64,000 bases of DNA, taken from the NCBI RefSeq assembly GCF_002262875.1, contig NZ_NKYE01000006.1, positions 62,001 through 126,000 of the forward strand. Direction: 5' to 3'. The position numbers were made by a program, and so were the translations under genes. The notes under the pieces were generated by a model. That model was not told where the DNA came from and did not search any database. It saw only the letters and a list, made by a program, of their open reading frames with translations. Below, one piece after another: positions 345 through 61,257 of this stretch (the first letter of the stretch is position 1; every line of letters starts with the position of its first letter). Source of the DNA: Amycolatopsis antarctica. GTDB lineage: Bacteria; Actinomycetota; Actinomycetes; Mycobacteriales; Pseudonocardiaceae.

Positions 345-1454
345 GTGACACGTTCGCTCGTCACGGAGTCCGAGGCCACGGGCCGTCCGCTACAGGTGGC
401 CGTGGGCCGCGCGGGAACGCGCTCGGAGGCCGCCGTGCTCTTTCCCTCACTGGGCGAGTATCCGGTCTACGACCCGATGGCCTACCGGTTCATGCTCGAC
501 GACGAGCGGCGCAACGAGCACTACGCCGCGGCCGTACGGCGACACGCTCCCGGGCGCACGGTGCTCGACATCGGCACCGGCCACGAGGCGGTCTGGGCGA
601 TCGAGAGCGCCCGCGCCGGAGCGAGCCACGTCTACGCCGTCGAGGTCATCCCGGAGACCGCCGCACTGGCCCGCAAGACCATCGCCGAGGCTGGCCTCGC
701 CGATCGCATCACCCTGATCGAGGGCCTGTCCACGGACATCGAACTGCCCGTCAGGGCGGAGGTCTGCGTCTCCGAGATCATCGGCACCCTCGGTGGTTCC
801 GAGGGTGCCGGTCCCGTGTTGCGGGACGCGCGCCTGCGGCTGCTGACACCGGACGGGGTGTTCGTGCCGCACCGGTCGGCTACCACTGTCGTGGCGGTCG
901 ACCTCGACACCGCCTTCGGTGGCAGGCGGCCCGCGTTTGCCCCTATCGCCGTGCGCTACCTGGACAAGATCTTCGGCTCGGTCGGCCGGCCGTTCGACCT
1001 GCGGGTGTGCGTTCCGCGGTTGAACGAGGCGGCGTTCCTCTCGGAGATCGCCGAAGTCGAGTCCCTCGAGTTCAACGGCGAACTGCGACCGGAGGGCACC
1101 GATCACCGCGAGCTGCGGGTCACGAAATCCGGAACACTGCACGGTTTCGCGCTCGGCGTGCGGCTCTGGGTCGACGAGAACCAGTCGCCACTCGACTCGT
1201 TCTCCCAGCGCACCAACTGGTTCCCGGTCTACGCACCCGTCTCCACCGCGGGTCTGCCGGTGGCCGAGGGGGATCGGATCACGCTGGAGTTCGTGACACG
1301 GCTCAGCGACGACGGGGTGCATCCCGACTACGAGCTGACCGGGGAACTGGAACCCGTGGCAGGGGAGCGCGTCCCGTTGCACTGGAGGTCCGGTCATCAC
1401 GACATGGGTTTCCGGACGAACGGCTTCTACCGCGAACTGTTCCCCGGCGACTGA
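345..1454 (+). CDS. PRMT-like SAM-dependent methyltransferase 1
   Basis: A 369-residue class I methyltransferase. Motif I, VLDIGTG, is at residues 73-79. It is followed by a PRMT-style double-E loop: SEIIG with Glu144, and a second Glu153 nine residues on, the spacing found in protein arginine methyltransferases. A TNW segment near residue 290 stands where PRMTs have the THW loop, and a PRMT-like beta-barrel C-terminus follows. In PRMTs the two Glu bind the substrate guanidinium, so a guanidine-bearing substrate (arginine or a peptide residue) is plausible but inferred. GTG 345 is chosen because GGGAGA lies just upstream and because the longer frame has no homology-like N-terminus. The stop is 75 bases from a close paralogue. 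This pair and its terminator form one transcription unit beside the NRPS operon. Confidence 0.82.
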   Translation: MTRSLVTESEATGRPLQVAVGRAGTRSEAAVLFPSLGEYPVYDPMAYRFMLDDERRNEHYAAAVRRHAPGRTVLDIGTGHEAVWAIESARAGASHVYAVEVIPETAALARKTIAEAGLADRITLIEGLSTDIELPVRAEVCVSEIIGTLGGSEGAGPVLRDARLRLLTPDGVFVPHRSATTVVAVDLDTAFGGRRPAFAPIAVRYLDKIFGSVGRPFDLRVCVPRLNEAAFLSEIAEVESLEFNGELRPEGTDHRELRVTKSGTLHGFALGVRLWVDENQSPLDSFSQRTNWFPVYAPVSTAGLPVAEGDRITLEFVTRLSDDGVHPDYELTGELEPVAGERVPLHWRSGHHDMGFRTNGFYRELFPGD

Positions 1455-1529
1455 GCCGTAGCACGTCCGCCGCACCACCCGCCGCGCCCGCGCGCATGAC
1501 GTGCGGCCTCGACAAGGAGTGACCAAGAC

Positions 1530-2642
1530 ATGAGTTCCTACCGCCTGGCCGAACTGAGTCTTCCGGAAGGCTCGACCCCGGTTCGCGTGGCAGCCACGGA
1601 CGATCGCTGGTTCGACATCGCCGTGCCGTCCGTGGGGGAGTACCCGGTCTACGACGACATGCTGTACCAGATCATGATCGCCGACACCCCGCGCACCGAC
1701 GGCTATCGCCGCGCGGTCCGCCGGCACGCTCGCGGGAAGACGGTGCTCGACATCGGCACGGGCCAGGACGCGCTCTGGGCGATCGCGAGCGCCGAAGCGG
1801 GCGCGCGCAAGGTCTATGGCGTCGAGACCATTCCCGAGTCCGCCCGTCTGGCACGCGACGCCGTGGACCGGGCGGGATACAGTGATCGCGTCACCATCGT
1901 CGAGGGCCTGTCGACCGATGTGGAGCTGCCGGAGCCGATCGACCTCTGCGTGTCCGAGATCATCGGCACCCTCGGTGGATCCGAGGGTGCCGCCTCAGTG
2001 CTCTCCGCCGCCCGCCGCGACTTCATGGCACCCGGGGGCGCGTTCATCCCGCAGTGGTCGGCGACCACCGTGGGTGCGGTGGACCTGTCGGTGCCCGTTC
2101 CCGACCTGCAGATGTGCCTGGACGGAGACACCGCCAAGTACCTGGAGAAGATCTTCGAGCACGTCGGGAGGCCGTTCGACGTGCGGATGTGCCTGCCCGG
2201 TCTGCGGATCGAGGACCTGATCTCGACCAGGGCGACCGTCGAGGAGCTGACCTTCGCGGACGAGATCCCGATGGACGGCAAGGACCAGCGAGAACTGGTC
2301 ATCACCCGCGACCGCACCCTGCACGGCTTCATGATCGGCATGCTGCTGCGGATCGACGATGTCGAACCGTTGATCGATTCGACCGCGCAGGCCAGTAGCT
2401 GGATTCCGGTGTACGCCCCGGTGTCGGACGAGGGCATACCGGTGCGGGAAGGCGACCGGATCGTTTTCGACTTCTCCTGGTCGCTCAGCGACGACGGTGT
2501 CCACCCCGACTACCGCATGGAGGGTGAGATCCGCCGGGCCGGTCAGTCGGCGGTCGCGTTCGAGTGGGACTCTCCGCACCATGGAACGGTATTCCGCGGA
2601 AATGGTTTCTACCGATCGTTGTTCCCCGTCGAAGGTCCTTAG
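1530..2642 (+). CDS. PRMT-like SAM-dependent methyltransferase 2
   Basis: A 370-residue paralogue of the preceding gene. Motif I, VLDIGTG, starts at residue 72. The double-E loop has Glu143 and Glu152 within SEIIGTLGGSE, and SSW replaces the TNW of copy 1 at the THW position. The start ATG has AAGGAG about a dozen bases upstream. Both copies keep all visible SAM-binding and double-E residues, so neither looks like a decayed duplicate. They may form a heterodimer or act on different positions, since PRMTs work as dimers. It is followed directly by a strong terminator. Substrate unknown; a guanidino group is the best guess from the double-E loop. Confidence 0.82.
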   Translation: MSSYRLAELSLPEGSTPVRVAATDDRWFDIAVPSVGEYPVYDDMLYQIMIADTPRTDGYRRAVRRHARGKTVLDIGTGQDALWAIASAEAGARKVYGVETIPESARLARDAVDRAGYSDRVTIVEGLSTDVELPEPIDLCVSEIIGTLGGSEGAASVLSAARRDFMAPGGAFIPQWSATTVGAVDLSVPVPDLQMCLDGDTAKYLEKIFEHVGRPFDVRMCLPGLRIEDLISTRATVEELTFADEIPMDGKDQRELVITRDRTLHGFMIGMLLRIDDVEPLIDSTAQASSWIPVYAPVSDEGIPVREGDRIVFDFSWSLSDDGVHPDYRMEGEIRRAGQSAVAFEWDSPHHGTVFRGNGFYRSLFPVEGP

Positions 2643-2654
2643 AGGTCCATTTAC

Positions 2655-2703
2655 CGGTCCGGTGGGCCCGGCGATCCGTCGCCAGGCCCACCGGACCGTT
2701 TTG
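2655..2703 (+). terminator. rho-independent terminator after the methyltransferase pair
   Basis: A perfect 14-bp stem (2655-2668 with 2685-2698) has a 16-base loop and is followed by TTTTG. It begins 13 bases after the stop of methyltransferase 2 and separates that unit from the long leader of the NRPS operon. Confidence 0.88.
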
Positions 2704-3585
2704 TGTCCGGACCACGTGTTCCCGGATGTGGATGCGACTGTTGTTTCACGAGGGTGAGCGAGAACGGCCCAATGGTGGCCACCATTCGGCGTAGTGCTCG
2801 GCGAATCGTCGAATCACGAGACCGCGGTATTCGCGATGTGGGACGGGTTTCGCCGCTACTGCGCCCACTCTCCTGATGAGAATTCCAGTGTTAGGGACAG
2901 TCGCGTCGAAGGTGCCGTTCCCTCGGTATGAGTGTGCCAGTGGACCCTTGGCCATTGTGCGGATGCGCTTCGACCTGCGGGATCGGCGAAACGACCGGAT
3001 CCCGCCCCAGGGGATCGTCGCGAGTCACAGGCGAGGACCTGCGGAAATGCGGATGCCGCCCAGTTGAATACTTTACGAACGTGTCGATCCAAGTAGCCAT
3101 CACAACCGCGTTCGCCTCCTACTTTCGATCGACCTCGCTGTAAGCCGTTCGTGCTATTTCACGAGGCCACTACCCCCATCTGCGGCCCTGCGCCTCCTGC
3201 TCTGGTGCCAGAGCGGACCGAGCGCGGACCGAGCAGGACAGGGTGGGCGCATACGCTCGGTGACGGACGGGCGTGACCGGTGAATCTTTACCGGACCGTC
3301 AAACCCATTCGGGTGACGCTTGTCGATCGGTGTTCTGAAGTGCGTATTCGTGGCGGTGAACTCCCCGGCGTACCCGCCTAGACGGCGGCGAGGGGGCCGG
3401 GCGACAGTCGCGACCGAGCGCGTCCGCCCGCGTGATCCCGCCGGTCGGGGCGGTCGCGGAGCCCGCGTCGCCGCCGGATCGGGCCCGGCGACCGTCGCCG
3501 TGCGGGAGATTTTCTCCGGACGGCGATCAATTCCCTCGTCGGCAGGGGGCAATTGGACCAGAATTGTTCCGGACCGGTTAATGCG

Positions 3586-4058: not shown

Positions 4059-5318
4059 ATTTCAGCACCGAATGATCACCAGAGCCGGAAAGCTGTCGTG
4101 ACCGGGTGGGGTGCGGTGACACCGGTCGGGCTCACCGCCGACGACTCCTGGCGTTCGCTGCTGGCCGGTCGCAGCGGCATAGCGACGATCGAGTGCGTCG
4201 ACGCCTCCGACCTGCCGACCGACATAGCCGGCGAGGTACGCGGCTTCGACCCGGAGAACTACCTGTCCCGCAAGCAGGTTCGCCGGATGGACCCGTACGC
4301 GCAGTACGCCTTCGCCGCGACCGCCGAGGCCCTGCAGATGGCGAAACTGGACATCGACGAGGACATGGCACCTCGGGTCGCGGTGCTGATCGGCAGCGGA
4401 TACGGGCCGATGAACGCGATCGCCGAGCAGGTCGCCTCACTGGCCGCGAAGGGACCCCGAGGGGTCAGCCCGTTCGCCCCGGTCACCGGGGCGATCGACA
4501 GCGCGGCAGGCGAGATCAGCCTCGCGTTCGGCGCCGCGGGCCCGACGCGGGCGGTCAGCACCGCCTGCGCGTCCGGCACCGACGCGATCGGTGAGGCGGC
4601 CCGGCTGATCCGCTACGGCGTGGCCGACGTGGTGATCGCGGGTGGCGCGGAGAACATCCTGACCCGGAACGAGATCGCGGGCAGCGGGAACGCGAAAGCG
4701 CTCTCCACCCGGACCGACGCACCCACCGAGGCGTGCCGGCCGTTCGACGAGGACCGCGACGGCTTCGTGATGAGCGCGGGGGCCGGCGTGATGATCCTGG
4801 AATCGGCGCAGCACGCGGCCGCCAGGTCGGCGCCGGTGTACGCCGAGGTCGCCGGTTACGCGGCGACCTCGGACGCCTATCACTGGACGGCACCGCATCC
4901 CGAGGGCAGGGGAGCACGCGCGGCCATGCGCGGCGCACTCGCCGACGCCGGGATCGATGCGTCCGAAGTGGACTATGTCAACGCGCACGGGACGAGCACG
5001 GTGCTCAACGACAGGGCGGAACTCGAATCCGTTCGTGCGGTGCTCGGCGATCGGGCCACCCGGATCCCGATCAGCTCGACCAAGTCGATGACCGGTCACA
5101 TGATCGGCGCGGCGGGTGCGGTGGAGGCCATCGTGGGCGCCCTCGTCATCAACGAGGGCATGATCCCGCCGACGGTCAACTGCCACCGGCCGATCGACGA
5201 TGAGATCAACTTCGTGCCGCTGGAGGCGCAGGCACACGAGGTCGACGTGGTCATGAGCAATTCGTTCGGTTTCGGCGGTCACAACGCCGTCCTGCTGCTG
5301 CGGCGCTGGCCCGGCTGA
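4059..5318 (+). CDS. beta-ketoacyl-ACP synthase, FabF (KAS II) type
   Basis: A decarboxylating condensing enzyme of the thiolase fold. Numbered from ATT 4059 (419 residues), the triad is Cys170 in TACASG, His310 in NAHGTST and His347 in KSMTGH, with Lys342. These spacings (140 and 37) equal those of E. coli FabF. The C-terminal NSFGFGGHN loop is intact, so it should condense rather than act as a chain-length factor. Starting at GTG 4098 would give 406 residues but remove the first beta-strand (RKAVVTGWG), and 4098 lacks a good ribosome-binding site; the AAAGGAG at 4046 suits ATT. No ACP, KR or PKS lies nearby. It heads the NRPS operon 60 bases before NRPS1. It may extend a fatty acyl group for N-acylation, as ketosynthases in CDA-type lipopeptide clusters do, but this is inferred. 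Confidence 0.9.
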   Translation: MSAPNDHQSRKAVVTGWGAVTPVGLTADDSWRSLLAGRSGIATIECVDASDLPTDIAGEVRGFDPENYLSRKQVRRMDPYAQYAFAATAEALQMAKLDIDEDMAPRVAVLIGSGYGPMNAIAEQVASLAAKGPRGVSPFAPVTGAIDSAAGEISLAFGAAGPTRAVSTACASGTDAIGEAARLIRYGVADVVIAGGAENILTRNEIAGSGNAKALSTRTDAPTEACRPFDEDRDGFVMSAGAGVMILESAQHAAARSAPVYAEVAGYAATSDAYHWTAPHPEGRGARAAMRGALADAGIDASEVDYVNAHGTSTVLNDRAELESVRAVLGDRATRIPISSTKSMTGHMIGAAGAVEAIVGALVINEGMIPPTVNCHRPIDDEINFVPLEAQAHEVDVVMSNSFGFGGHNAVLLLRRWPG

Positions 5319-5378: not shown

Positions 5379-8300
5379 ATGCACGAGGTTTCCAGCCGGC
5401 GTCGGCGACTCTCCGTAGGCCAGCTCGGCAAGTGGTACGGCCAGCAGCTGAACCCCGACAACATGTTCATGCTCGCGGAGTACCTGGAGATCGACGGTGC
5501 CATCGACGTCGACCTGTTCCAGGAGGCCCTGCTGCGGACAGTTCTCGACGCGGAACCGGTGCAGACCCGGTTCACCGCCGACGACGAGGGCGTCTGGCAG
5601 TACCTCGTGCCCGAGGCGCCACTGACGTTCGTCGACGTCAGCGGCGAGCAGGACCCGATGGCCACCGCGCTGGACTGGATGCAGCGCGACCTCTACAAGC
5701 CGTTCGACGTAACCGATGCGCCGCTGTCGATGGACACCCTGTTCCGGATCACGCCGGACAAATACGTCTACTACATGCGCAACCACCACCTCAACGCCGA
5801 CGGTGGTACCGGTCCGATCTTCGTGCAGCGCCTCGCCGAGATCTACACGGCGCTGGCCGGAGGCACCGAGTACAGCCCCAACACCTTCGCGACTCTCGAC
5901 GAGTGCCTGGCCGACGAGGACGCCTACCGGTCCTCGCCCCAGTTCGAACGCGACCGCGCGTACTGGAACGAGCGGCTCGCCGGACGGCCCGAGGCCGTGG
6001 GCCTCACCGCGTCCACCGCGATGGCCTCCGTTCGGCCGGTCCGGCAGACCGCCTATCTCGGCGACGCCACCATGACCGGTCTGCGCGAGCTGGCCCGGAG
6101 CAACGCCAGCACCTGGTCGATCGGGCTCACCGCCGCGGTGGCCGCCTACCTGCACCTGGTCAGCGGTGCCAAGGTGGTACCGGTCGGCTTCCCGGTCATG
6201 GCCCGCAAGAGCAAGCTGCTGCGGGAAACGCCGTTCATGGCGGCCAACGTCCTGGCCCTGATCGTCGACATCGATCCGTCGATGACTTTCTCCGAGGTGC
6301 TGCGCGCCACCACCGTCGAGGGCCGGAACACGCTCAAACACCAGCGGTACCGGCAGGAGGACATCCTCCGCGACCTGAACATGCTGGAGGGCGCGCGGGC
6401 TCTGGCCAAGATCACCGTGAACGTGATGCCCTTCGACTACAGCCTGACCTTCGGCGGGCACAACGCGACGGCGCACAACCTGTCCAACGGTGTGATCGAC
6501 GACTGCGAGGTCGTCGCCTACGACCGCCACGACGGCGGCCCGGTCCGGATCGATTTCGACGGCAACGAGGAGCTCTACGCCCAGGAGGAGATCGCCGGCC
6601 ACCTGGCGGGCCTGCTGCGACTGCTGGACCGCATGGTCGCCGAGCCGGACGTACCGCTGGCCCGGTTCGACCTCGTCGACGAGGCCGAACGCCGGCGGGT
6701 GCTCGTCGAGTGGAACGACACCGCCGTCGACGACGACCTCGAGGGCGTCGTGGAGCGCGTGCAGCGCACGGCCCGGTCCACCCCCGACGCCGTCGCGGTC
6801 GTGGACGCCGCCGGGGAGACCGGCTACGCGCGGCTCGCCGGCCGGGCCAGTGCACTCGCGCGCAGGCTGCGCGCCCTGGGAGCGGGGCCCGGCTCCATCG
6901 TCGCGCTGCCGACCGACCAGGGTGCCGACTTCATCACCGCGGTGCTCGGCGCGCTGGGCGCCGGCGCCGCGTACATGCCGCTGGACGTGGACGGGCCCGC
7001 CACCCGGGCGGCCGCGCTGCTGCGGGACAGCCGGGCCGGTTTCGTCGTGGCCCGTGCGGACCGTGCGGAGGGCATCGAGCGTTTCGTCGCCGAGGCGGAC
7101 GCCGCGGTCGAACTGCTGTTCCTGGACGACGCGATCGACGGTCCGGACGACCTGCTGCCTCCCGTGGGCAGTGGTGACGATCTGGCGTACGTGCTGTTCA
7201 CCTCCGGGTCCACCGGAAAGCCGAAGGGGGCGATGGTCCACCGCGACGGGCTGGTGAACCATCTGCTCGCCATGGTCGAGGACTACGACCTCACCGCCGC
7301 CGACACCGTGGTGCAGAACGCGCCGCTGACCTTCGACGTCTCGGTGTGGCAGATGCTCACGCCGCTGCACGCCGGCGGGACGGTCCGCGTGGTGGGCAGG
7401 ACCGTGGCCGCCGATCCGGACGCGCTGTTCCGGCTGGTGGCCGAGGAGAAGGTCGCGGTGCTGCAGATCGTGCCCTCGCTGATGCGCGCGGCACTCGATG
7501 TGTGGCAGGCAGAGGACACCTTCCCCGCACTGCCCTCGCTGCGGTGGCTGGTGGTCACCGGTGAGCCGCTGCCGGCCGACCTGTGCGTGCGCTGGCTGGA
7601 GCGCTACCCGGACATTCCGCTGGTGAACGCCTACGGCCCTGCCGAGTGCGCGGACGACGTGACCTGCGCGGTCATCGACACCCCGGACCGGGTGCGCGAC
7701 GGCGTGGTCCCGATCGGCAAGGCACTGCGCAACACCCGGCTGTACCTGCTCGACGACCGGCTCCGGCCGGTGCCGGTCGGGTCGCCCGGTGAGCTCTACG
7801 TCGGCGGTCTGGTCGTCGGCAGGGGATACCTGGGCGAGTCGCGGCGCACGGCCTCGTCCTTCGTGGCGGATCCGTTCAGCCCGCGCGCGGGTGCCCGGAT
7901 GTACCGCACCGGTGACTATGTCCGGCACCTTCCCGACGGTGAACTCGTGTTCCTGGAACGACGGGACCACCAGGTCAAGATCCGTGGCCACCGGATCGAG
8001 CTGGGCGAGATCGAAGCCGTGCTCGCCCGGTTCCCCGACGTGGGTCCGCTGACCGTGGTGGCAAGGGAGGACCGGCCGAGGGAGAAGAACCTCGTCGCCT
8101 ACGTGGTGGCCGGCGAGACCGGCCTCGACCTCGACGCGCTGCGCGCCTTCGCCGGCGCGGAACTGCCCGACTACATGGTTCCGTCGGCGATCGTCGAACT
8201 CGACGCGCTTCCGTTGAGCCCCAACGGGAAGCTGGACCGCAAGGCGCTGCCGGCACCGGATCTCGCGCGAGCGGGCAGGGCTCCGCGCACCGCCAACGAG

Positions 8301-8510
8301 GAACTTCTCGTCGGGGTGTTCGCCGAGGTGCTCGGGGTGGAGCGGCTCGGGGTGGACGACAGCTTCTTCGACCTCGGCGGGCATTCCCTGCTCGCCACCC
8401 GGCTGATCAGCCGGGTGCGGTCGCTGTTCGACGTCGAACTGACCATCCGCGCGGTGTTCGAGGGGCCGACGGTGGCTGCGCTGGCGGCAAGGATCGGCAG
8501 GGCGGGGACC
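5379..8510 (+). other. NRPS1 module 1: C-A-T, starter-type C, substrate unassigned
   Basis: The C domain (to about residue 445) is intact and could take a free acyl donor. A-domain code DVWQVTADDK; the A5 region reads GPAECADDV instead of the usual GPTE. Two Asp at 330/331 may favour a polar or cationic substrate. Carrier serine 1003. Confidence 0.7.
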
Positions 8511-11500
8511 GCACGGGCCGCGCTGACCGTCGCGCGTCGCCCGGAGGTCCTGCCGCTGTCGTTCGCCCAGCGCCGGCTGTGGTTCCTCAACCGGATGGAG
8601 ACCACCGGTGCCGGGGTGTACAACCTGCCGCTGCCGCTGCGTCTGCGCGGCACCCTGGACTTCGCGGCGATGGTGGAGGCATTGGGCGACCTGGTGGGCA
8701 GGCACGAGGCGCTGCGCACCCTGTTCGAGGAGTCCGGAGGCGAGCCGCGGCAGCGGATCGTGCCCGCCTCGCGGGCCCGCGCGATGGTGGCCGCGACCAC
8801 GGCCGAAGAGGACATGGACGAGACGCGGCTGCCGGACCGGCTGACCGAGACCACCGGGCACCGCTTCGACCTCTCCGTCGAGTTGCCCCTGCGGGCATGG
8901 GTGTTCCGCCCCGGCGCCGACGAGTGGGTTCTGATGCTCGTGGTGCACCACATCGCCGGAGACGGCTGGTCCTTCGCGCCGCTGCTGCGCGACCTGGAGG
9001 AGGCCTACCGGGCGCGCGCGGCGGGCACCGCCCCGGATTTCGATCCGCTTCCGGTGCAGTACGCGGACTACACGCTGTGGCAGCGCACGGTTCTCGGGTC
9101 CGAAGAGGACGGCGAGAGTGTGGCGGCCCAGCAGGTGCGGTTCTGGCGGGAGCAGCTCGCCGGGGCACCGGAGGTTCTCGATCTGCCCACCGACCGGCCA
9201 AGGCCCGCGGTGGCCTCGTACGCGGGCGCCCGGGTGATGTGGTCACTCGACGCCGAGGTGGCGACCGGGGTGCGGGATCTCGCGCGGGAGCGTGGGGTGA
9301 GTGTGTTCATGGTGATGCAGGCTGCGGTGGCGGGGTTGTTGTCGCGGTTGGGTGTGGGTGTTGATGTGCCGTTGGGGACGGTGGTGGCGGGGCGTACTGA
9401 TGAGGCTTTGGATGAGTTGGTTGGGTTTTTTGTGAATACGTTGGTGGTGCGGACGGATGTGTCGGGGGATCCGTCGTTTGTGGAGTTGTTGGATCGGGTG
9501 CGTCGTGGGGATTTGGCGGCGTATGGGAATCAGGATGTGCCGTTCGAGCGGTTGGTGGAGGTGTTGAATCCGCGTCGGTCGTTGTCGTGGCATCCGTTGT
9601 TCCAGGTGATGGTGGTGTTGCAGAACGTTCCGGAGCCGGATCTGGACCTGCCGGGACTCGACATCGAGCTGGAGACCGTCCGCACCGAGGACTCCCGTTT
9701 CGACCTCTGGTTCGATCTGCACGAACGCCACGACGCCACTGGTGCGCCGACCGGGATCGACGGGTTCATCGAGTTCGCGACCGATCTGTTCGACGCCTCC
9801 ACGGTGCGGGCGATCGGTGCGCGCCTGTCGCGGCTGCTGGCCGCTGTCACCACCGATCCGTCGACCAGGGTGAGCCGGGTCGAACTGCTCGACTCCGACG
9901 AGCGGCGTGCTCTGCTGTCCGGCTGGAACGGTGCGGAGACCGCCTCGCCGGGAGAGTCGCTGGCGGCCCGCTTCGAGGCACGGGCAGCGGCCGCCCCGGA
10001 CGCACCCGCCCTGCAGACCACTGACGGGATCTGGACCTACGCCGAGGTGGACGCCAGGGCGAACGCCTGGGCGGACGAACTCACCGCCGCGGGAGTCGGC
10101 GTGGAGACCGCGGTCGCACTGTTGCTGGACCGTTCTCCCGAACTGGTCATGGCTATCCTCGCGGTACTCAAGGCCGGCGGGTTCTACGTACCGCTGCACG
10201 ACTCGTACCCGGTGGAACGACTCAACTTCATTCTGTCCGATGTGGACGCTCCGGTACTGCTGACCGACCGGGAGGCGCTGCCGTCCGGGCTGAGCCCGGA
10301 TCCCCGGGTGCTGCGCCTGACCGATCTCGGCGCGGATTCGGGCACACCGGGGCCGAGATCACGGGTGCGGCCGGACGGACTCGCCTACGTCATGTACACC
10401 TCGGGGTCGACGGGCACGCCGAAGGGGGTGGCGGTCACCCACGCCAACGCGGTCGCGCTGGCCACCGACAGCGCGTTCACCACACCGGCGCACGAGCGGG
10501 TGCTGCTGCACTCCTCGTACGCCTTCGACGCCACCACCTACGAGCTCTGGGCGCCGCTGCTGCGCGGTGGAACGATTGTGGTGGCCCCGCCAGGGGACCT
10601 CGACATCCCGGTGTTGCGCCGGATGATCAGCGAGCACCGGGTCACCGGCCTGTGGCTGACGGCCGGGCTGTTCCGGCTGGTCGCCGAGGAGGCGCCGGAA
10701 ACCCTGTCCGGCGTCGCGGAGGTGTGGGCCGGCGGGGACGTCGTACCGCCCTCGGCGGTCGAGCGGGTCCGTGAACGCTGCTCGGGCCTGGTCGTGGTGA
10801 ACGGATACGGCCCGACCGAGTCCACCACCTTCGCCACCCGTTTCGCCGTCCGCGCCGAGGACGCCGTACCCGAACCGGTGATCCCGATCGGCCACCCGGT
10901 CGACAACTGCCGGACCTACGTACTCGACACCTGGATGAGCCCGGTGCCGCTGGGCGTCACGGGAGAGCTCTACATCGCCGGTTCCGGTCTCGCCCGCGGC
11001 TACCAGGATCGGCGCGGCCTGACCGCCGCCCGCTTCGTGGCCGATCCGCACGGAACGCCGGGGGAGCGGATGTATCGCACCGGTGACCTGGTCCGCCGCC
11101 GCCGCGACGGGGCCCTGGAGTTCCTCGGCAGGGTGGACGACCAGGTGAAGCTGCGGGGTTTCCGGATCGAACTCGGCGAGATCGAGGCCGCCGTCACCCG
11201 CCACCCGCGCGTGGGCCAGGCAGTCGTGCTGATCCGGGAGGACCCGGTGGCGGGCAAGCGCCTGGTCGCCTACCTCGTCCCGGAAGGGGCGCCGGAGGAC
11301 CTGGACGTGGCCGCCGTGCGGGAATCGCTCTCGGCCGAGCTGCCCGCCTACATGGTGCCCGCGGCGTTCCCGGTGGTCGATCGGATCCCGTTGACCACCA
11401 ACGGAAAGGTGGACCGCGCGGCGTTGCCGGAGCCGGAGTTCGCCGGGACCGCGAGCAGCGAACCGCGCAACCGCACCGAGAAGCTGCTCTGCGAACTGTT

Positions 11501-14500
11501 CGCGGACGTGCTGGGCCTGGAGACGGTCGGCGTGCACGACAGCTTCTTCGACCTCGGCGGACATTCGCTGCTGGCGACGCGCCTGGCCAGCCGCGTCCGG
11601 TCGGTACTGGACGTGGAGTTGCCGATCCGCGCCATCTTCGACGCGGTCACTCCGGCCGGGGTGAGCCGGGTGATCGACGCGGCCACCGGTGGTGGCCGCC
11701 GGGTCGAGGTGCGGGAACGTCCCGAGGTGCTGCCGCTGTCGTTCGCGCAGCAACGCCTGTGGTTCCTCGACCGTCTCGACGAGTCCGGTGGCCTCTACAA
11801 CATCCCGATCGCGTTGCGACTGACCGGTGAACTCGACCGGCCCGCGCTCGCCGCGGCGCTGGGCGACGTGCTGGAACGGCACGAGTCGCTGCGGACCGCC
11901 TTCCCCGAGACCGACGGCCGCGCCCGCCAGCTCGTGCTGGATCCAGCCTGGGCGCGGGAACTGCTCGACGGGGTGACCAGCAGGGCCATCGTCGACGAGG
12001 AGGAGTTGCCCGCACGGCTGAAGGAGGCGGCAGGCTGCAAGTTCGACCTGTCCCGCGAGCTTCCGCTGAAGGTGTGGCTCTACGAGGTCGGTACCACCGA
12101 CCACGTTCTGCTGCTGGTGGTGCACCACGTCGCGGGTGACGGCTGGTCGCTGGCCCCGCTGATGCGTGACTTCAGCGTCGCCTACGAGAGCAGGCTGGCG
12201 GGCGCGGCACCGGAGTTCACCCCGCTCCCGGTGCAGTACGCGGACTACACGCTGTGGCAGCGCGATCTGCTGGGCGCCGAGGGCGACCGGACGAGTGTCA
12301 TCGGACGTCAGCTCGACTACTGGACGACGACGCTGGACGAGCTGCCCGAGGAACTGGCACTGCCCTACGACCGTTCCCGCCCGGCGCAGCCCAGCTACTC
12401 CGGTGGCACAGTCGAACTGAACATCGACGAGGCGACGCACAGCCGCCTGGCCACTGTCGCCGCCGAGCACGGTGCCAGTGTGTTCATGACCCTGCACGCG
12501 ACGCTCGCCGTGCTGCTCTCCCGACTTGGCGGGGGTACCGACATCCCCGTCGGTACCCCGATCGCGGGCCGCCAGGACGAGGCGCTGGACGAACTGGTCG
12601 GCCTGTTCGTCAACACCCTGGTGCTGCGGGCCGATCTGGGCGGCGACCCGACGTTCGCGCAGTTGCTGTCCAGGGTCCGCTCGGCCGACCTGGCCGCGTT
12701 CGATCACCAGGAACTGCCGTTCGAGCAGGTGGTGGAGGCGGTCGCGCACGAACGCTCCCTCAACCGCCATCCGCTGTTCCAGGTCATGCTGGCGCTGCTG
12801 AACACCCCGGCCGCCGCTCTGGAACTGCCCGGGCTGCGGGTCGCCGTTGCCGACTACGGGCTCGACGCGGCGAAGTTCGACTTGTCGGTGTCGTTGAACG
12901 AGCACCAGCACCCCGACTCCTCACCTGCCGGGATCACCGGGACGCTGGAGTACAGCGCGGACCTGTTCGACAGGGCCACCGCTGCCCGGATCGCGGACTG
13001 GTTCGGCGTGGTGCTCGGCCAGGTGCTGGCAGACCCGGAACGTCCGGTCAGCGAGGTCGGGCTGATCTCGGACGAGGAGCGCACGCGGGTGCTGGAGCGG
13101 TGGAACGACACCGCGGCTCCGGCGGCCGGCGGCACGATCGTCCAGGTGTTCCAGGAGCACGCCGCGAAGGCTCCCGCCGAGCGTCTGTCGGTCGTCTTCG
13201 GTGACGAGCGGATCAGTACGGTCTCACTCAACGCCAGGGCGAACCAGCTCGCGCGGGCGCTGCGGGCACGCGGCGTCGGCATCGGGGACACGGTCGCCGT
13301 CGGGCTCCCTCGCTCGGCCGCGATGCCGGTCGCGATGCTCGCCGTACTGAAGGCCGGCGCCACGTATCTGCCGATCGATCTCGGCTATCCGCCGGAGCGG
13401 GTCCGCTACATGCTCGACGACGCCGGCCCGCAACTGGTGATCGTCGACTCCGGTACCAGCGACGCGCTGCCGGAAGGGACCCCGCGACTGGTGCTCGACG
13501 AGCCCGTCGTGCACGAGGAACTCGCCGCCGGGCGGACCGGCGACCTGACCGGCACCGAACTGGGCCGGTCGCTGTCCCAGCACGACCCGGCGTACGTCAT
13601 CTACACCTCCGGGTCGACGGGGGCGCCGAAGGGCGTGGTCGTCGAGCACGGCTCGCTGGCCAACCTGTACCACCACCAGCGGGAAAGCCTGTACGCCCCG
13701 GTGGTCCGGCGGCTGGGCGACCGTCAGGCGCGGGTGGCGCTGACCGCCTCCTTCGCCTTCGACGCGTCCTGGGACCCGGTGCTGTGGATGATCGGTGGCC
13801 ACGAGCTGCACGTGGTCGACGAGGACCTGCGCCTGGACGCCGACGCGTTCGGCCGCTACCTGGCCGACGCCGGCATAGACCTGATCAACACCACCCCGTC
13901 CTACCTGCGCCAGCTCGTCGCGGACGGCCTGTTCGACGGGACGCGCCGCGCGCCGGGGGTGCTCATCCTGGGCGGCGAGGCGGTGCCGGAGGACCTGTGG
14001 ACCTCGCTGCGGGCGGTCCCCGGTCTGGACGCGCGCAACTTCTACGGCCCGACCGAGGCCACCGTGGACGCGATGGCCTCGATGCTGGCCGAGGACGAGC
14101 GGCCCTCGATCGGCCACCCGCTGCGCAACGGCCGGGCCTATGTACTCGACGACCGGCTGCGGCCGGTGCCGGTGGGCATCGCCGGAGAGCTCTACGTCGC
14201 CGGGGCCGGACTGGCGAGGGGCTACCTGCGCCGTCCCGGACTCACCGGGGAGCGGTTCCTCGCCGACCCCTTCGGTGCACCGGGTACGCGCATGTACCGC
14301 ACGGGTGACCTCGCCCGCAGGCGTTCCGACGGTCAGGTCGTGTACCTGGGGCGGGTGGACGACCAGACGAAGATCCGTGGGTTCCGCGTCGAACTCGCCG
14401 AGATCGAGTCGGTACTCACCGAGCAGCCTTCGGTCGGCACGGCGGCGGTCGTGGCCAGCAAGGGCGGCCCCGGTGCCACCACCCTGGTCGGGTACCTGAC

Positions 14501-16454
14501 CCCGGCCGGGGACGCGCTGGACGTCGACACGGTGCGGTCGGCGATCCGGGAGATGCTGCCGGAATACATGGTGCCCGCCGCGTTCGTGGTGCTCGACGAG
14601 TTGCCGCTGTCGGCGAGCGGCAAGCTGGACCATCGCGCGCTGCCCGCGCCCGAGTTCGCCGCGGAACCGGCGGGGCGGGCCCCGCGCACCCCGCGGGAGG
14701 AGACGCTCTGCGCGGTGTTCGCGGACGTGCTGCGGGTGCCCGAGATCGGGGTGGACGACAGCTTCTTCGACCTCGGCGGCGACAGCATCATCTCGATCCA
14801 GCTCGTCAGCAGGGCCAGGAAGGAGGGCCTGGTCTTCACTCCGCGGGACGTCTTCGAACGCAAGACGGTCGCCGGGCTGGCGGCCGTGGCCGGTGAACTC
14901 GCCTCGCACGCGCTCGTCGCCGACGAGAACGGGGTGGGCGAACTGCCGCTGACCCCGGTGATGCAGTGGTTCCTCGGTGGCTCTTGGCCGATCGACGGCT
15001 TCAACCAGTACCGGCTCGTCGGGGTGCCCGCCGATCTCGGCTGGCAGTACCTGATCGGCGCGATCCAGTCCCTGCTGGACCACCACGACGTGCTGCGCTC
15101 CACTCTGCTGCCCGGTACCGGAACCGAGGGCCCCACGACCACCGGTTCACTGGAGATCACGCCCACCGGGTCGGTACGGGCACAGGAACTCGTGCGCCGT
15201 ATCGACGTCTCCGGTCAGGACGAGGGCGAACGGACCGCGAGCTACGCCCGGGCAGGCGACGCGGCCCGGCAGCGTCTGGCGCCCCGCGAGGGCCGGATGC
15301 TGGACTTCGTCTGGTTCGACGCCGGACCGGACGAGCCCGGCAGGCTGCTGTTCGTCGCGCACCACCTGGTGGTCGACGGGGTGTCCTGGCGGATCCTGCT
15401 CGACGACCTGGCCGCCGCCTGGCAGGCACTGGCCGGTGGGCAGCGCCCGAAGCTCGAGCCGGCCTGGACCTCGTACCGCACCTGGGCGCGGATGCTCACC
15501 GAGGCCGCGCACGATCCCGCCTGGACCGGGCAGCTCGACGTCTGGAAGTCCATTTTGGACGGCCCCGATCCGCGACTGGGCACCCGGGACATCGACCCGG
15601 CCAGGGACACGGTCGCCACGGCGGCGTCGACCTCGGTGACCCTGCCGGTCGAGGAGACCGAACCGTTGCTCACCACCGTTCCCGCTGCGTTCCACGCCGG
15701 CGTGAACGATGTGCTGCTCACCGCGCTCACTCTGGCGGTCGCCCGCTGGCGCGACCTGCGCGGCGACCCCGGCGACGGCTCGCTGCTGATCAACGTCGAG
15801 GGGCACGGCCGTGAGGACGCACTGTCCGATGTGGAGCTTTCGCGCACCGTCGGCTGGTTCACCAGCCTGTTCCCGGCACGCCTCGACGCGGGCGGAATCA
15901 CCTGGTCCGACGTCGGGTCCCGGTCCGGGCGGGTCGGTGACGCGCTGAAGCGGATCAAGGAGCAGTTGCGCGACATCCCCGACCGCGGCTTCGGCTACGG
16001 GCTGCTGCGGTACCTCAACGCCGGGACGGCCACCGAGCTCGACCGGTTGGGAGCCCCGCAGATCGGGTTCAACTATCTCGGCCGGTTCGGGACCTCCACG
16101 GCACAGGAGTCGCCGCTGTGGGCCTCGGACTCGGAAACCGAACGGCACGTGGCCGTCGGCGACGACGAACTCCCGTTCGTGCATGTCATCGAGATCAGCG
16201 CCGTCACCGAGGACACCGCCGAGGGACCGAGGTTCAGCGCGGCACTGTCCTGGCCGTCGGACCTGCTCACCTCACGGGAGGCGGATGAGCTGGCGGAGCT
16301 GTGGATGCAGGCGCTGCGTTCGCTCGCCTCCTGTGTCCAGGAGAGCACGGTCGGCGGGTTCACCCCGTCCGACCTGACGCTGGTGTCGCTGAGCCAGGAC
16401 CACATCGACCTGCTCGAGGACGACGAGGAGGACGGCTATGACGACGAGGACTGA
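5379..16454 (+). CDS. NRPS1: C-A-T-C-A-T-C-A-T-E
   Basis: A 3691-residue three-module synthetase. Condensation motifs are HHLNADG (136-142), HHIAGDG (1190) and HHVAGDG (2249). Phosphopantetheine serines are S1003, S2063 and S3136; the last is in GGDSI, the form typical before epimerases. An epimerase follows, with HHLVVDG (3328), RTVGWFT and FNYLGRF. GrsA-numbered pocket codes are DVWQVTADDK (unassigned), DAYWWGGTFK (Val-like) and DADNIGFVDK (unassigned; Asp at 239 and 331 hints at a basic residue). The first C domain is at the very N-terminus, as in lines primed with an acyl group. The C-terminal tail is very acidic ([11 protein letters not shown]) and probably docks NRPS2. The second C domain carries a 386-bp block identical to one in NRPS2. 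ATG 5379 has only AAGG close by. Confidence 0.95.
9045..9152 (+). repeat. 108-bp direct repeat, copy 1 (other copy 20184-20291)
   Basis: Identical base for base to 20184-20291, inside the second condensation domain of NRPS1. The spacing between copies is 11,139 bases, the same as for the 386-bp repeat downstream, so the two domains align without gaps and only patches are identical. Confidence 0.95.
9280..9665 (+). repeat. 386-bp perfect direct repeat with atypical codons, copy 1 (other copy 20419-20804)
   Basis: Identical to 20419-20804. It encodes the C-terminal half of a condensation domain (from RERGVSV to PGLDI). Its codon use breaks sharply with the flanks: leucine is almost always TTG, aspartate GAT, valine GTG/GTT and glycine GGG/GGT, where neighbouring DNA uses C-ending codons. 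This suggests recent gene conversion between the two domains, and that the tract itself may come from a different source. Confidence 0.97.
11700..16454 (+). other. NRPS1 module 3: C-A-T-E, D-residue, possibly basic
   Basis: Code DADNIGFVDK matches no code I can assign. The A4 region reads [11 protein letters not shown], and the acidic pocket residues may favour a cationic side chain. Carrier serine 3136 is in a GGDSI motif. The C-terminal epimerase should give the D-configured residue. Confidence 0.65.
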
Positions 16455-16502: not shown

Positions 16503-27538
<11,036 letters not shown>

Positions 27539-27542
<4 letters not shown>

Positions 27543-30500
27543 CCCGGCCGCAGATCGAGGACATCCTCCCACTGTCGTCCCTGCAGCGGGGCCTGCTCTT
27601 CCATTCGCTCTACGACGCCGAGGGCCTGGACCTCTACACCGTCCAGTTCCATGTGGAGCTGCGTGGCGAGGTGGACAGGACGGCACTGCGCTCGGCTGCG
27701 AACACCTTGCTGCGCAGGCATTCCAACCTGCGTGCGATGTTCGTCCACGAAGGATTCGACGAGCCCGTCCAGGTCGTCCGCAGTGGCGTCGAGGTGCCAT
27801 GGGACGAGATCGATCTGTCCGATATGGACAGTGTGGCCGCGGACGCGGAGTTCGCCGCGCGGCACGACGCCGAGCGGATGCGCCGGTTCGTCCTGGACGA
27901 GGACGTCCTCGTGCGCTGCGTGCTCTACGTGCTGCCGGACCGGGTGTTCCGGCTCGGCCTGACCCTGCACCACATCCTGCTCGACGGCTGGTCGGTGCCG
28001 GTCCTGCTGGAGGAGCTGTTCGAGCTCTACGAACGGCGCGGCGGTACCGCCGGGATGCCGGTGGTGACCCCGTATCGCGAGTACCTCGACTGGATCGGCA
28101 GGCAGGACACGGAAGCCGCGACGAGCGCGTGGCAGGAACTCCTGCACGGAGCCGAGGCCACCCGGATCGTGCCTGCCGACCGCGGCGGCGAGCCACGGCC
28201 ACCTCGTGCGGTATCGCTGGAACTTCCCGCGGAGGTGACCGCGGCGCTGACCGAGCAGGCCCGCGACCGCGGCTGGACCCTCAACACCGCGGTGCAGGCG
28301 GCATGGGGGCTGGTACTGGGCAGGCTCACCGGCCGCACCGACGTCCTCTTCGGCGGCACCGTGTCCGGACGCCCCGCCGAACTGCCCGGGGTGGAGCGGA
28401 TGATCGGCCTGCTCATCAACACCCTGCCGGTCCGGGTCGGCTGGACCGGCCAGGACAGCCTCGCCGACCTCGTCTCCTCGGTGCAGCGGCAGCAGTCCGC
28501 GCTGTTGCCGCACCAGCACGTCGATCTCGCCGAACTGCACCGGCTCCGCGGCGACGGCGAACTGTTCGACACCACGCTGGTCTACGAGAACTACCCGTCC
28601 GGCGCGGACGAGGAGCAGGTGCTCAGTGGCGGTGTGCGGATCACCGACGTGCACGGCCGCGACTCCACCCACTACGCCGTCACGGTCGTCGCCATGCCGG
28701 GCGACCGCTTGCGGTTCCGCCTCGACTACCGGCCGGAAAGCCTCGACGAGGCCGCCGTGCGCAGGCTCGGCGACTGGCTCGAGCGCACCCTGCGCGCGCT
28801 CGCGGCCCGCGCGGACGACCCCGTCGACTCGGTCGAGCTGATCACCGGGGCCGAACGGGAGCAGGTGCTGCGGACCTGGAACGACACCGCGCACCCGGTC
28901 CCCGAGGACACCCTTGCCGGCCTGCTCGCCCGGCAGGCGGCGCGCACCCCCGGTGCCACCGCGCTCGTCGACGGTGACACCGAGCTCACCTACGCCGAAC
29001 TGCACGAGCGGGTCAACCGGCTGGCCCGGCGGCTGATCGCTGCCGGGGCCGGCCCGGAACGGCTCGTCGCCGTGGCACTGCCGAGGTCCACCGAGCTGGT
29101 GGTCAGCCTGCTCGCCGTGGTCACCTCCGGTGCCGCCTACCTGCCGATCGCCCCGGAGCACCCGGCCGAGCGGGTCGCGATGATGCTCGGCGACGCCCGG
29201 CCGGTATGCGTGCTCGCCCAGTCCGCTACCGCACTGGCCGGAGCCGGCGGGATGCCCGTGCTGCTCCCCGGCGACGTGGGGGAGGGCTCGCCGGAGGCCA
29301 TCACCGACGCGGACCGCCTCGCGCCCCTCGACCCGCGATCTCCCGCCTACGTCATCTACACCTCCGGTTCCACCGGCACCCCGAAGGGCGTCGCCGTACC
29401 GCACAGCGGAATCGTCAACCGGCTCGCCTGGATGCAGGCGGAGTACGGACTCACCGACGACGACCGCGTACTGCAGAAGACACCGTTCGGATTCGACGTC
29501 TCGGTGTGGGAGTTCTTCTGGCCGCTGATCACCGGCGCCGCGCTGGTCGTCGCCGAACCCGAGGGCCACAAGGATCCCGCCTACCTCGCCGGCCTGATCC
29601 GCACCCAGCGCGTCACCACCGTCCACTTCGTACCCTCCATGCTGGAGGTCTTCCTCGCCGAACCTGCGGCGGCGGACTGCGCCGCCGGACTGCGCCGGGT
29701 CATCTGCAGCGGCGAGGCTCTCTCCCCGGCCACGGCGGACACCTGCCTGAAGGTCCTCGGCACGGAACTGCACAACCTGTACGGCCCCACCGAGGCCTCC
29801 GTCGACGTGACCTACTGGCAGTGCCTGCCCGCCGCTTCGAGCGTGCCGATCGGCGCACCGGTGTGGAACACCCGCACCTACGTGCTCGACGCACGGCTCG
29901 TACCGGTGCCTCCCGGCGTCCCGGGCGAGCTGTACCTGGCGGGAGCGCAACTCGCCCGCGGCTACGTCGGCCGGGCCGCGCTCAGCGCCGAACGGTTCGT
30001 CGCCAACCCGCATGGCGCTCCCGGCGAGCGCATGTACCGCACGGGCGACCTCGCCTGGTGGCATGAGGACGGCACCCTCGCCTACGCGGGCCGGGTCGAC
30101 GACCAGGTCAAGATCCGCGGCCAGCGGATCGAGCCCGGCGAGATCCAGGCTGTCCTTGCCCACCACCCCGGCCTGGCACAGGTGGCCGTGGTGGTCCGCG
30201 AGGACCGGCCCGGCGACCAGCGGCTGGCCGCGTACGTGGTGCCCGCCGGCGGGCGCGCCCCGAGCGACGGCGAACTGGGCGAGTACGCCGGGGCCAGGTT
30301 GCCCGCGCACATGGTGCCCGGCACGTTCACCACACTGGACACGTTGCCGGTGAGCCCGAACGGCAAACTCGACCGGCGCGCGCTGCCCGTGCCGGAGGTC
30401 GCCGCGGGAACCGGCCGCGGCAGCCGGACGATGACCGAGGAACTGCTCTGCCGGGCCATCGCCGAGGTACTCGGCCTCGACCGCGTCGGCCCGGAGGACG

Positions 30501-31438
30501 GATTCTTCGAACTCGGCGGGCACTCGCTGCTGGCGATCCGCCTGGTGGACCGGATCGGCTCGCTGCTAGGGGTGAGTTCGACCGTCCGCACCGTGTTCGA
30601 GGCACCCACCGCGGCCGCGCTGGCCGGGAGGCTCGCCGGGCAGGACGCGGGCGACGACGCGATGGCGACACTGCTTCCGTTGCGCCGCAACGGAGACCTG
30701 CCCCCGCTGTTCTGCGTACATCCCGCCGGTGGCCTGAGCTGGTGCTACGCCGGGCTGCTCGGCGAACTCGATCCGGCCATCCCGGTGTACGGCCTGCAAT
30801 CGCCCGAGGTGGTCGAGGGCGGCTCGGAGGCCTCGATCGCGCAGCGCGCGGCCGGCTTCGTCGAACGGATCCGTACGCTCCGCCCCGAGGGCCCTTACCG
30901 GCTGCTCGGGTGGTCGGCGGGTGGCCACATCGCGCACGAAATGGCGGTGCAGCTACAACGGCAGGGCGCGGAGGTCGACCTGCTGGTGACGCTCGACGCC
31001 TACCCCGCACGTCCGGACGACCGTCTCGATCGTGAGCGGATCTTCGCGGACATGTTCGCCGCCACCGACGTGGTGCGGTCCGATATGGACACCGAACCGG
31101 GCAGGGCGAAGGTCTTCGAGACCGTGCGCGCCGGTCTCAGCGGGCACGACTGGATCACCGACGAGGTCGCGGGAAACGTGCTGGAGAGCTACCTGTCCAC
31201 CACTCTCGCCATGCAGGCGGCGAGCCCGGGCCGGTTCGAGGGCGACCTGATGTTCTTCCGTGCCAAGGACATCGTCGGTGACGGTTCCCGCGACACCGAG
31301 CTCTGGCGCCCGCACGTCCAGGGCCGGATCGAGGTGCACCAGATGGAGCAGGTGCACGAGGACATGGCACGGCGAGACGTGCTTGACCTGGTCGCGGCGG
31401 CCGTCAACGACGCCGTGATCACCGATGAAGAGGAGTGA
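27539..31438 (+). CDS. NRPS3: C-A-T-TE, terminal serine module
   Basis: A 1299-residue single-module synthetase with built-in release, laid out like EntF. GTG 27539 overlaps the NRPS2 stop by four bases. The C domain opens [15 protein letters not shown] (D-donor type, expected after the NRPS2 epimerase) and has HHILLDG at 144. The A-domain code DVWHISLVDK is the serine code, with HFVPSML and NLYGPTE. Carrier serine 996 is in GGHSL. The thioesterase begins near residue 1042, with [10 protein letters not shown] and the nucleophile Ser1126 in GWSAGG; VHEDMA near the end supplies the histidine. It releases the heptapeptide by hydrolysis or cyclisation, and the Ser hydroxyl of this or an acyl chain could be the cyclising nucleophile. 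A GTGA junction leads into the MbtH gene. Confidence 0.95.
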
Positions 31439-31443
31439 ACGCA

Positions 31444-31656
31444 ATGACGAACCCGTTCGAGGACAACGACGCAGGCTTCTCCGTGCTGGTCAACGATGAG
31501 GGTCAGCACTCGTTGTGGCCGCAGTTCGCCGAGGTGCCCGCGGGCTGGCGGGCCGTGTTCGGCGTCGACACCCGGCAGGCATGCCTCGACTACGTCGAGG
31601 AGAACTGGACGGACATGCGCCCGCTCAGCCTCGTCAAGGCGATGAACGAGGCCTGA
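31444..31656 (+). CDS. MbtH-like protein
   Basis: A 70-residue MbtH-family chaperone for adenylation domains. It shows the signature [19 protein letters not shown] and the [10 protein letters not shown] end. Such proteins bind A domains and are often needed for their solubility or activity, here most likely those of NRPS1-4. ATG 31444 (MTNPFEDND) fits the family start and has GAGGAG eight bases upstream. The alternative GTG at 31435 overlaps the NRPS3 stop. Confidence 0.96.
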
Positions 31657-31683: not shown

Positions 31684-32469
31684 ATGGCCGAACACACTGA
31701 ACACGAGCGCAGACGCTGGCTTCGCGGCCGGCGCGACGGTGGCGACGCCGCGGCGAATCTCGTCTGCCTGCCGCACGCGGGCGGATCGGCAAGTTTCTAC
31801 CGTGACTGGGAGGCCGGTCTGCCCGGGGACCTGGCGGTGCGCGTGGTGCAGTACCCCGGCCGGGAGGACCGCCTGGCCGAACCGTGCCTGACGAACATGG
31901 CCGAGCTCGCCGACCGGGTCACCGAGGTTGTCCTGCCGTTGTTCGACCGGCCGGTCGTGCTGTTCGGGCACAGCATGGGCGCGGCGCTGATGTACGAGGT
32001 GACCCGCCGCTGCGAGGCCGCCGGTGCGTCACCGGACCTACTGATCGCCTCGGCGCACCCTGCGCCCCACCGCAAGGAACCGGGCGGCCTGCATCTCGGC
32101 AGCGACCGGGACCTGCTCGCCGATCTGCAGAACTTCGCAGCCAGCCGGGCGATCCTGGAAAGCGAGGAACTGCGGGAGATCATGCTGCCGATGGTTCGGG
32201 CGGACTACCAGGTCATCGAGACCTACGAACTCGCCGAGCCGATTCCCGTGCGCGCCCCGATCGCGGTGTTCCGTGGCGCCGAGGACACCGACGTCGACTC
32301 CGGGCAGGGCGATGCCTGGGCCGAACTGACCGAACACGGGCGCCTGGTACGACACCAGGTGTTCGACGGCGGCCACTTCTATCTGCAGCCGCAGCAGGAC
32401 AGGTTGTTCGCGGAGATCACCGGCCTGCTGGAGGCGGTACGGACGAGATCCCGCTCCGTGGCGCGATGA
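31684..32469 (+). CDS. type II thioesterase
   Basis: A 261-residue stand-alone alpha/beta-hydrolase of the proofreading type that clears misprimed carrier domains. LVCLPHAGGSASFYRDW near the N-terminus and the nucleophile elbow GHSMGAAL are typical, and GGHFYLQ near the end carries the catalytic His. GGGGAGG lies a few bases before ATG 31684. It sits 27 bases after MbtH, in the same transcription direction as NRPS1-3. Confidence 0.95.
   Translation: MAEHTEHERRRWLRGRRDGGDAAANLVCLPHAGGSASFYRDWEAGLPGDLAVRVVQYPGREDRLAEPCLTNMAELADRVTEVVLPLFDRPVVLFGHSMGAALMYEVTRRCEAAGASPDLLIASAHPAPHRKEPGGLHLGSDRDLLADLQNFAASRAILESEELREIMLPMVRADYQVIETYELAEPIPVRAPIAVFRGAEDTDVDSGQGDAWAELTEHGRLVRHQVFDGGHFYLQPQQDRLFAEITGLLEAVRTRSRSVAR

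Positions 32470-61253: not shown

Positions 61254-61257
<4 letters not shown>

Follow-up and report, generated by a model that had tools for sequence, protein, structure and literature searches.

What would a pair of proteins resembling protein arginine methyltransferases (PRMTs) do beside non-ribosomal peptide synthetase (NRPS) genes in an actinomycete? The question is raised by a 64,000-nucleotide stretch of Amycolatopsis antarctica (assembly GCF_002262875.1, contig NZ_NKYE01000006.1, positions 62,001 to 126,000; hereafter the window), which carries two candidate PRMT-fold guanidine N-methyltransferase genes on its forward strand. PRMT-A (345 to 1454) encodes 369 amino acids from a GTG start and PRMT-B (1530 to 2642) 370 amino acids from an ATG start. 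On the strength of sequence comparison and structure prediction, we put the probability at roughly three in four (0.74) that the two are stand-alone guanidine N-methyltransferases dependent on S-adenosylmethionine (SAM), most likely acting on a building block that derives from arginine and enters the products of the adjacent NRPS lines.

Motifs and fold of the PRMT pair

Both open reading frames (ORFs) were found where a sequence-only reading of the window had placed them, 75 bases apart and each preceded by a plausible ribosome-binding site (of the GGGAG type before the GTG of PRMT-A). The two proteins are 53% identical over 337 residues. The motifs which that reading had named were all confirmed: SAM motif I (LDIGTG), the double-E (SEIIGTLGGSEG, with the Glu pair nine residues apart) and a third motif, TNW or SSW, that is only THW-like. 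In PRMT-B the double-E falls on E143 and E152 and the SSW on W291. These three residues are invariant in a 16-row family alignment, as are M49, D52 and R55 of an M..D..R helix, in which Y59 is nearly invariant. The double-E is present in 63 of 63 aligned rows, PRMT-A and PRMT-B among them, and the tryptophan of the THW-like loop in 62, the row of L143 having a gap.

A single-sequence phmmer search with PRMT-A retrieved PRMT7 (E 2.6e-14) and other PRMTs, and the 16-row family profile matched PRMT4.2 at 2.1e-27, its two Glu aligning with those of the PRMT double-E. The AlphaFold2 model of PRMT-B (mean predicted local distance difference test 91.9, predicted template modelling score 0.90) aligned by VIA-align with PRMT8 (Z 29.0, 291 residues, root-mean-square deviation 2.7 A) and with both a type I PRMT and PRMT6 (Z 28.7 each). 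The match spans residues 38–352 and takes in both the Rossmann SAM domain and, after it in the same chain, the PRMT beta-barrel; the predicted structure is of PRMT fold throughout. The double-E, whose absence from the active site would have told against the sequence-only reading, lines up at the sequence level with the double-E of solved PRMTs. Sequence and model together confirm PRMT-A and PRMT-B as full-length PRMT-fold proteins. Pfam gave no PRMT match above cut-off for the pair, the best being the PRMT5 model at 19.9 bits (cut-off 22.9) for PRMT-B only; Pfam-based annotation would therefore miss the family. The catalytic-core fold, SAM motif I, the double-E and the M..D..R...Y helix are common to the window family and to eukaryotic PRMTs (PRMT8, PRMT1, PRMT6, PRMT7), from which the family differs in its low identity (19–26% in structural alignments), in having x-(N/S)-W for THW and in its biosynthetic context.

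The double-E of PRMT-A and PRMT-B would clamp a guanidinium group and the Rossmann domain would deliver the SAM methyl. Within the window the target would be a capreomycidine- or arginine-type residue of the second NRPS line, or a guanidino group carried by the first. Catalysis, guanidine specificity, substrate and timing are inferred, and so is any split of the work between the two enzymes into successive steps or separate products.

A probable intrinsic terminator lies 3' of the pair and 5' of the NRPS operon (2655 to 2705, forward strand), with 14-bp hairpin arms followed by TTTTGTG and a minimum free energy of -52.6 kcal/mol (z -7.07, 81 nt folded). It did not appear in a consensus terminator scan, which admits loops of 3–8 only. 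As a strong hairpin and T run follow PRMT-B, the pair probably forms its own transcription unit.

PRMT-type domains inside NRPS modules

The most surprising part lies outside the window, in PRMT-type domains that are in-line parts of NRPS modules, mostly arginine-coded ones. We found a PRMT-family domain in frame inside an NRPS ORF at nine loci from four phyla: Pyrinomonadaceae (L106–L108), Nitrospirales (L109), Chitinophagaceae (L127, DXS) and the cyanobacteria Nostoc (L112, N. spongiaeforme, and L119), Scytonema (L117) and Chamaesiphon (L115). In all nine the domain sits between motifs A8 and A9 of the adenylation (A) domain, matches the family profile over most of its length (312–377 bits) and conserves the double-E.

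The A codes, read with a position ruler, appear arginine-like in seven of the nine hosts: DVENIGAITK, DVENVGAITK, DVEDIGAITK, DVEDLGCISK (twice), DVESIGAISK and DMESIGGVAK. They come close to codes listed for ApnA A1 domains that yielded arginine only by high-performance liquid chromatography with tandem mass spectrometry (DVEDIGAIEK, DVEDIGAVEK and DVESIGAIEK; Table 2 of PMC5311044), with T, S or A at the ninth position in the PRMT-hosting domains versus E in the ApnA A1 codes. The host A domain of L112 had ApnA A1, an Arg/Tyr domain, as its best solved single-domain match (375.6 bits). In the window, the second NRPS line uses the code DVEEAGVVTK in modules 1 and 4, and the nearest relatives of these two domains outside their own protein were, in the set compared, the PRMT-holding A domains of other phyla. 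Both groups have a Glu at position 239. In ApnA A1, E204 orients arginine, according to PMC11253843; if the numbering is carried over correctly, Glu239 should correspond to it.

Embedded PRMT domains use the same A8–A9 insertion site as canonical NRPS N-methyltransferase (N-MT) domains. They differ in belonging to another methyltransferase family: the N-MT of the second line of the window was not matched by the PRMT-family profile. Among open-licence PMC papers, the scope of our literature search (subscription literature lay outside it), we found no paper on an NRPS-embedded PRMT domain and none containing the A codes as letter strings. The interpretation of the pair as guanidine methylases gains indirect support from these domains in mostly arginine-coded modules, and from stand-alone members that lie beside arginine/guanidine-type genes.

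Gene neighbourhoods of the relatives

A scan of named genomes gave 71 relatives, 43 of them close (L091–L131, L141 and L143; at least 33% identity, the match extending to the C-terminal part) and 28 others. After merging of duplicates there were 59 distinct close loci, comprising the window, 17 of its family, 36 named and five from the Streptomyces family, with flanks mostly of 10–20 kb on each side (shorter at contig ends, longer for a few). NRPS, polyketide synthase (PKS) or arginine/guanidine-type genes were present in the flanks of 41 of these 59, window counted. The homologues are concentrated in biosynthetic loci; a wide occurrence outside such loci, which would have told against the sequence-only reading, was not seen. 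With NRPS/PKS markers derived from the loci themselves, matches were found at 21 of 43 close loci (nine being the fused ORFs) versus 0 of 28 others (Fisher P 2e-6), a contrast that is indicative, the other loci summing to 480 kb versus 858 kb and the markers being drawn from Actinobacteria.

Neighbours of the stand-alone members include arginine-monooxygenase-like, acyl-ligase, VioC/GntD-like, MppP-like, GntA-type, amidinotransferase-like and DDAH-like genes; several of these names come from scores under the curated cut-offs. A PKS cluster with an arginine-monooxygenase-type amine oxidase, a CN-hydrolase, an acyl ligase and a VinK-type acyltransferase is present in G034 and its relative G068, and partial sets occur in G086, G157, L098 and L104. 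PKS genes accompany a GntA-type heme guanidine N-hydroxylase in G040 and G074 (G040 was tested: 198.5 bits, cut-off 145). In a Sciscionella PKS locus such a GntA-type gene (L035:14587-15294) lies about 4 kb from a PRMT gene. NRPS genes occur with VioC/GntD-like genes in the second locus of G034 and in G147, G214 and G712, and with MppP-like and VioC-like genes, scoring below cut-offs, in G261. Seven further loci (L111, L113, L120, L122 and L182–L184) have amidinotransferase-, DDAH- and GntB-like genes, their NCBIfam matches again below cut-offs. Within this group we observed a conserved Streptomyces-type cluster (L113:1955-11011 and L182–L184) of a GntB-like gene, an amidinotransferase-like gene, a gene for a 440-aa protein, a DDAH-like gene and the PRMT gene, with a transporter gene in L113.

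Other surroundings were also seen. An MppP-like gene lies near seven of the 28 distant relatives (L135–L140 and L142; L135 was tested, 161.8 bits, below the cut-off of 450). These seven are distant PRMT-like genes of Proteobacteria, and a multicopper oxidase is also near in L135. In five Crossiella-type genomes a P450 gene overlaps or abuts the PRMT start (for example L037:18284-19471). The flanks of these five P450-linked loci of one genus, which two of them identify as Crossiella, and of G016a contained no guanidine, NRPS or PKS marker, and scans of selected neighbours likewise gave none.

The gene set of G034 and G068 matches the azalomycin route to a 4-guanidinobutyryl starter, as described in PMC5082578. 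This starter has no alpha-amine, and guanidine is therefore the common denominator of the family's contexts. In a quick maximum-likelihood tree, six PRMTs of the Streptomyces violaceusniger clade formed one set with those of G086 (second locus), L098 and L104, which are PKS loci with a VinK-type acyltransferase (Shimodaira–Hasegawa-like approximate likelihood ratio test, SH-aLRT, 100); PRMT-A falls in a larger supported set around this group (SH-aLRT 99). The six clade loci themselves (L095 and L099–L103) had no guanidine, NRPS or PKS marker within 10 kb on each side. Their five genomes each carry two guanidinobutyrate-type ligases of 59–62% identity, and S. iranensis (L102), an azalomycin F producer according to PMC10322714, is among them. 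PMC5082578 states that the azl/kch clusters hold no methyltransferase and calls the azalomycin guanidine-methylating enzymes unidentified. Because of the tree grouping, the two ligases in each genome and the presence of a producer, the violaceusniger-clade PRMTs are sequence-based candidates for the methylase that this paper leaves unassigned. The tie to the azalomycin-type marginolactones is that G034, G068, G086 and L098 have a PRMT gene inside a cluster with a guanidinobutyrate-type ligase, a VinK-type acyltransferase and a PKS; the azalomycin-clade PRMTs lie outside such clusters. Azalomycins F3a, F4a and F5a, which differ in steps of 14 Da, would be the forms with an un-, mono- and dimethylated guanidine.

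The family is sporadic. With PRMT-B as query, 40 of 297 Pseudonocardiaceae-type genomes had a match at E 1e-10 or better and 15, window genome counted, below 1e-50. A phylum-wide draw of 396 genomes gave full-length close members only in the window genome and weaker matches in five others. In the Streptomyces-containing family, 26 of 297 genomes matched the family profile at 1e-20, six of them below 1e-100. Co-occurrence of PRMT and ligase at the genome level in Streptomycetaceae was dropped as a line of evidence after the overlap proved to be 0 of 6. Tested post hoc, more distant PRMTs were enriched, with 6 of 20 falling within the 18 strong-ligase genomes (P 0.0005); we did not use this either, as the genes are located on different contigs or at a large distance and phylogeny is uncontrolled. 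We also rejected stendomycin as a direct explanation. In S. himastatinicus ATCC 53653, which we take to be its producer, the PRMT gene (L141) lies near 1.78 Mb of a 10.9-Mb record and the GntD/VioC match near 10.2 Mb, on contig 2, so the two are not adjacent.

Candidate substrates and the NRPS lines of the window

After a gap of 1.45 kb, NRPS line 1 is headed by a FabF-type ketosynthase (4098 to 5318); all window genes with a stated strand read forward. The line itself (5379 to 31438) has seven modules, with epimerization (E) domains in modules 3 and 6 and a terminal thioesterase (TE). Modules 1–3 (5379 to 16454) are built of condensation (C), A and thiolation (T) domains as C-A-T, C-A-T and C-A-T-E, with the A codes DVWQVTADDK, DAYWWGGTFK, which we take to be Val-like, and DA(D/W)NIGFVDK, read from an ambiguous alignment. 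Modules 4–6 follow at 16503 to 27542, with the E domain in module 6, and module 7 with the TE at 27539 to 31438 (code DVWHISLVDK, presumably Ser-like). Line 2 (38809 to 61257) has six modules. An N-MT-type insert of the canonical kind sits between A8 and A9 of module 3, an E domain in module 5 and a TE in module 6. A capreomycidine synthase, VioD (62072 to 63214; TIGR03947, 489.9 bits, cut-off 390.9), and an arginine/enduracididine beta-hydroxylase of GntD/VioC type lie about 60 kb downstream of the PRMT pair, beyond line 1. The hydroxylase gene (63207 to 64000) continues past the window end and encodes 343 aa (L072:207-1238); it scored 482.1 bits with NF041363 (cut-off 345) and 409.5 with TIGR03946 (cut-off 418.6).

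Two readings of the target are plausible. Capreomycidine or arginine of line 2 would fit the VioC/VioD-type genes and the A domains of that line, and a guanidino group of line 1 would fit the gene content of G212. Two lines and two PRMTs would also fit one enzyme per line, which is a guess. A more specific proposal, which we rate a serious contender at somewhat under even odds, is that line 1 takes a guanidino-acyl starter and that this, not capreomycidine, is the target. The starter would be made by an upstream ligase-aldehyde-dehydrogenase fusion, a thiamine pyrophosphate (TPP) enzyme and ketosynthases and loaded by the first C domain. The proposal draws on G212, which keeps the fusion, a ketosynthase, the TPP enzyme, an enoylreductase, the line-1 NRPS and one PRMT, and in which no match to GntD/VioC was seen at 1e-40; on L105, where line-1-type NRPS pieces accompany a PRMT that is the sister of the G212 one and where the genome has the fusion on a same-numbered contig; and on the ligase half, which shares about 41% identity with the G034 ligase of guanidinobutyrate type. 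The fusion was, however, also found in genomes at sites without a PRMT, and the TPP enzyme scored 193.5 bits in the 5-guanidino-2-oxopentanoate decarboxylase model (cut-off 500), below six other models. We did not adopt the label of a proven guanidinobutyryl pathway for this upstream set. The fusion and TPP genes, kept also in G212, lie upstream of the window at L033:7998-12440 and possibly form an unusual starter pathway.

Alternatively, PRMT-A and PRMT-B might make free N-omega-methylarginine, as SznE reportedly does, which would be loaded or processed later, with no carrier-bound or finished-peptide step. Streptozotocin (PMC11177257) and saskemycin (PMC12637814) offer precedents, the former giving N-omega-methylarginine as the substrate of SznF, and amidinotransferase/DDAH-like contexts without NRPS genes point the same way. 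We regard this as rather unlikely, since the NRPS-embedded domains suggest a carrier-bound residue as the target in those systems and the guanidinobutyryl-type PKS contexts begin with a guanidino acid. The 440-aa protein of the S. turgidiscabies-type cluster had no match in the PDB at 0.001, and there is thus no sign of a SznF-type partner in it. SznE and the SznE-like saskemycin enzyme resemble the window pair, by description and not by sequence, as bacterial arginine N-methyltransferases for small molecules (PMC12637814). Like SznE, the pair is encoded with arginine/guanidine-processing biosynthetic genes (VioD and VioC/GntD); it differs in that the window genes are paired and accompany NRPS lines, and in that relatives are built into NRPS modules.

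Two further explanations appear improbable. The family could methylate the alpha-amine of arginine-type residues, standing in for an N-MT and using the side chain for recognition only; the embedded domain does occupy the canonical N-MT insertion site. Yet all nine embedded domains retain the double-E, the family profile did not find the canonical N-MT of line 2, and relatives lie in polyketide clusters of the guanidinobutyryl type, where the starter lacks an alpha-amine. Or the proteins could be genuine PRMTs whose target is a cellular protein, with a role in regulation or self-protection; the best solved relatives are indeed protein PRMTs. A sporadic distribution (the 15 of 297 genomes above), the biosynthetic linkage of 41 of 59 loci and the fusion to NRPS modules make this equally hard to favour.

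Guanidine methylation of an NRPS building block, which we prefer, has to contend with several observations that weigh against it. The T and H of the THW-like loop are not conserved. At eighteen of the 59 close loci the flanks retrieved showed no recognised marker for guanidine, NRPS or PKS genes, and the unlinked close members include the five P450-linked loci of one genus and the six violaceusniger-clade loci. Arginine cannot be read clearly from the A codes of L109 and L119, and the ApnA codes most similar to DMESIGGVAK (L127) belong to domains of mixed Arg/Tyr/Lys use (PMC5311044). In G212, the closest relative seen in an NRPS cluster, one PRMT is retained along with line-1-type genes, but the genome has no GntD/VioC match at 1e-40 and the A code of module 3 is Thr-like; retention of the PRMT there is therefore not explained by capreomycidine or the module-3 residue. 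Of 297 Streptomycetaceae genomes, 30 had a match to the guanidinobutyrate-type ligase (18 of them strong) and six a close PRMT; the two groups did not overlap. Finally, S. lividans also methylates azalomycin (PMC5082578), and an unrelated general enzyme could therefore do it.

We consider it fairly probable that these proteins belong to a bacterial PRMT-fold family of natural-product guanidine N-methyltransferases. Such a family would act in trans in NRPS, guanidino-polyketide (including the missing azalomycin-type marginolactone methylase) and small-molecule clusters, and in cis as a new in-line NRPS tailoring domain, placed between A8 and A9 in modules that activate arginine, with cases in Cyanobacteria, Acidobacteriota, Nitrospirota and Bacteroidota. 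N-methylguanidines are present in several antibiotics. A sequence-recognisable family with a clear motif makes the azalomycin-methylase question directly testable and offers a way to mine for peptides and polyketides with a methylated guanidine. The embedded PRMT also suggests a methyltransferase domain type for NRPS engineering, one that would alter arginine side chains in situ.

The remaining genes of the window lie between and after the two lines. Line 1 is followed by a 70-aa protein of MbtH size (31444 to 31656), so named from its length and position, a stand-alone thioesterase (31684 to 32469; PF00975) and a TauD-type dioxygenase (32567 to 33547), nearest to the GntD, clavaminate synthase and VioC models and under all their curated cut-offs. 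A two-component pair comes after the dioxygenase. A 273-aa protein with no Pfam or NCBIfam match (61254-62075) overlaps line 2 and VioD by a few bases. Downstream of the VioD and VioC genes, a phage-type integrase gene (L034:1711-2886) possibly marks the edge of an island.

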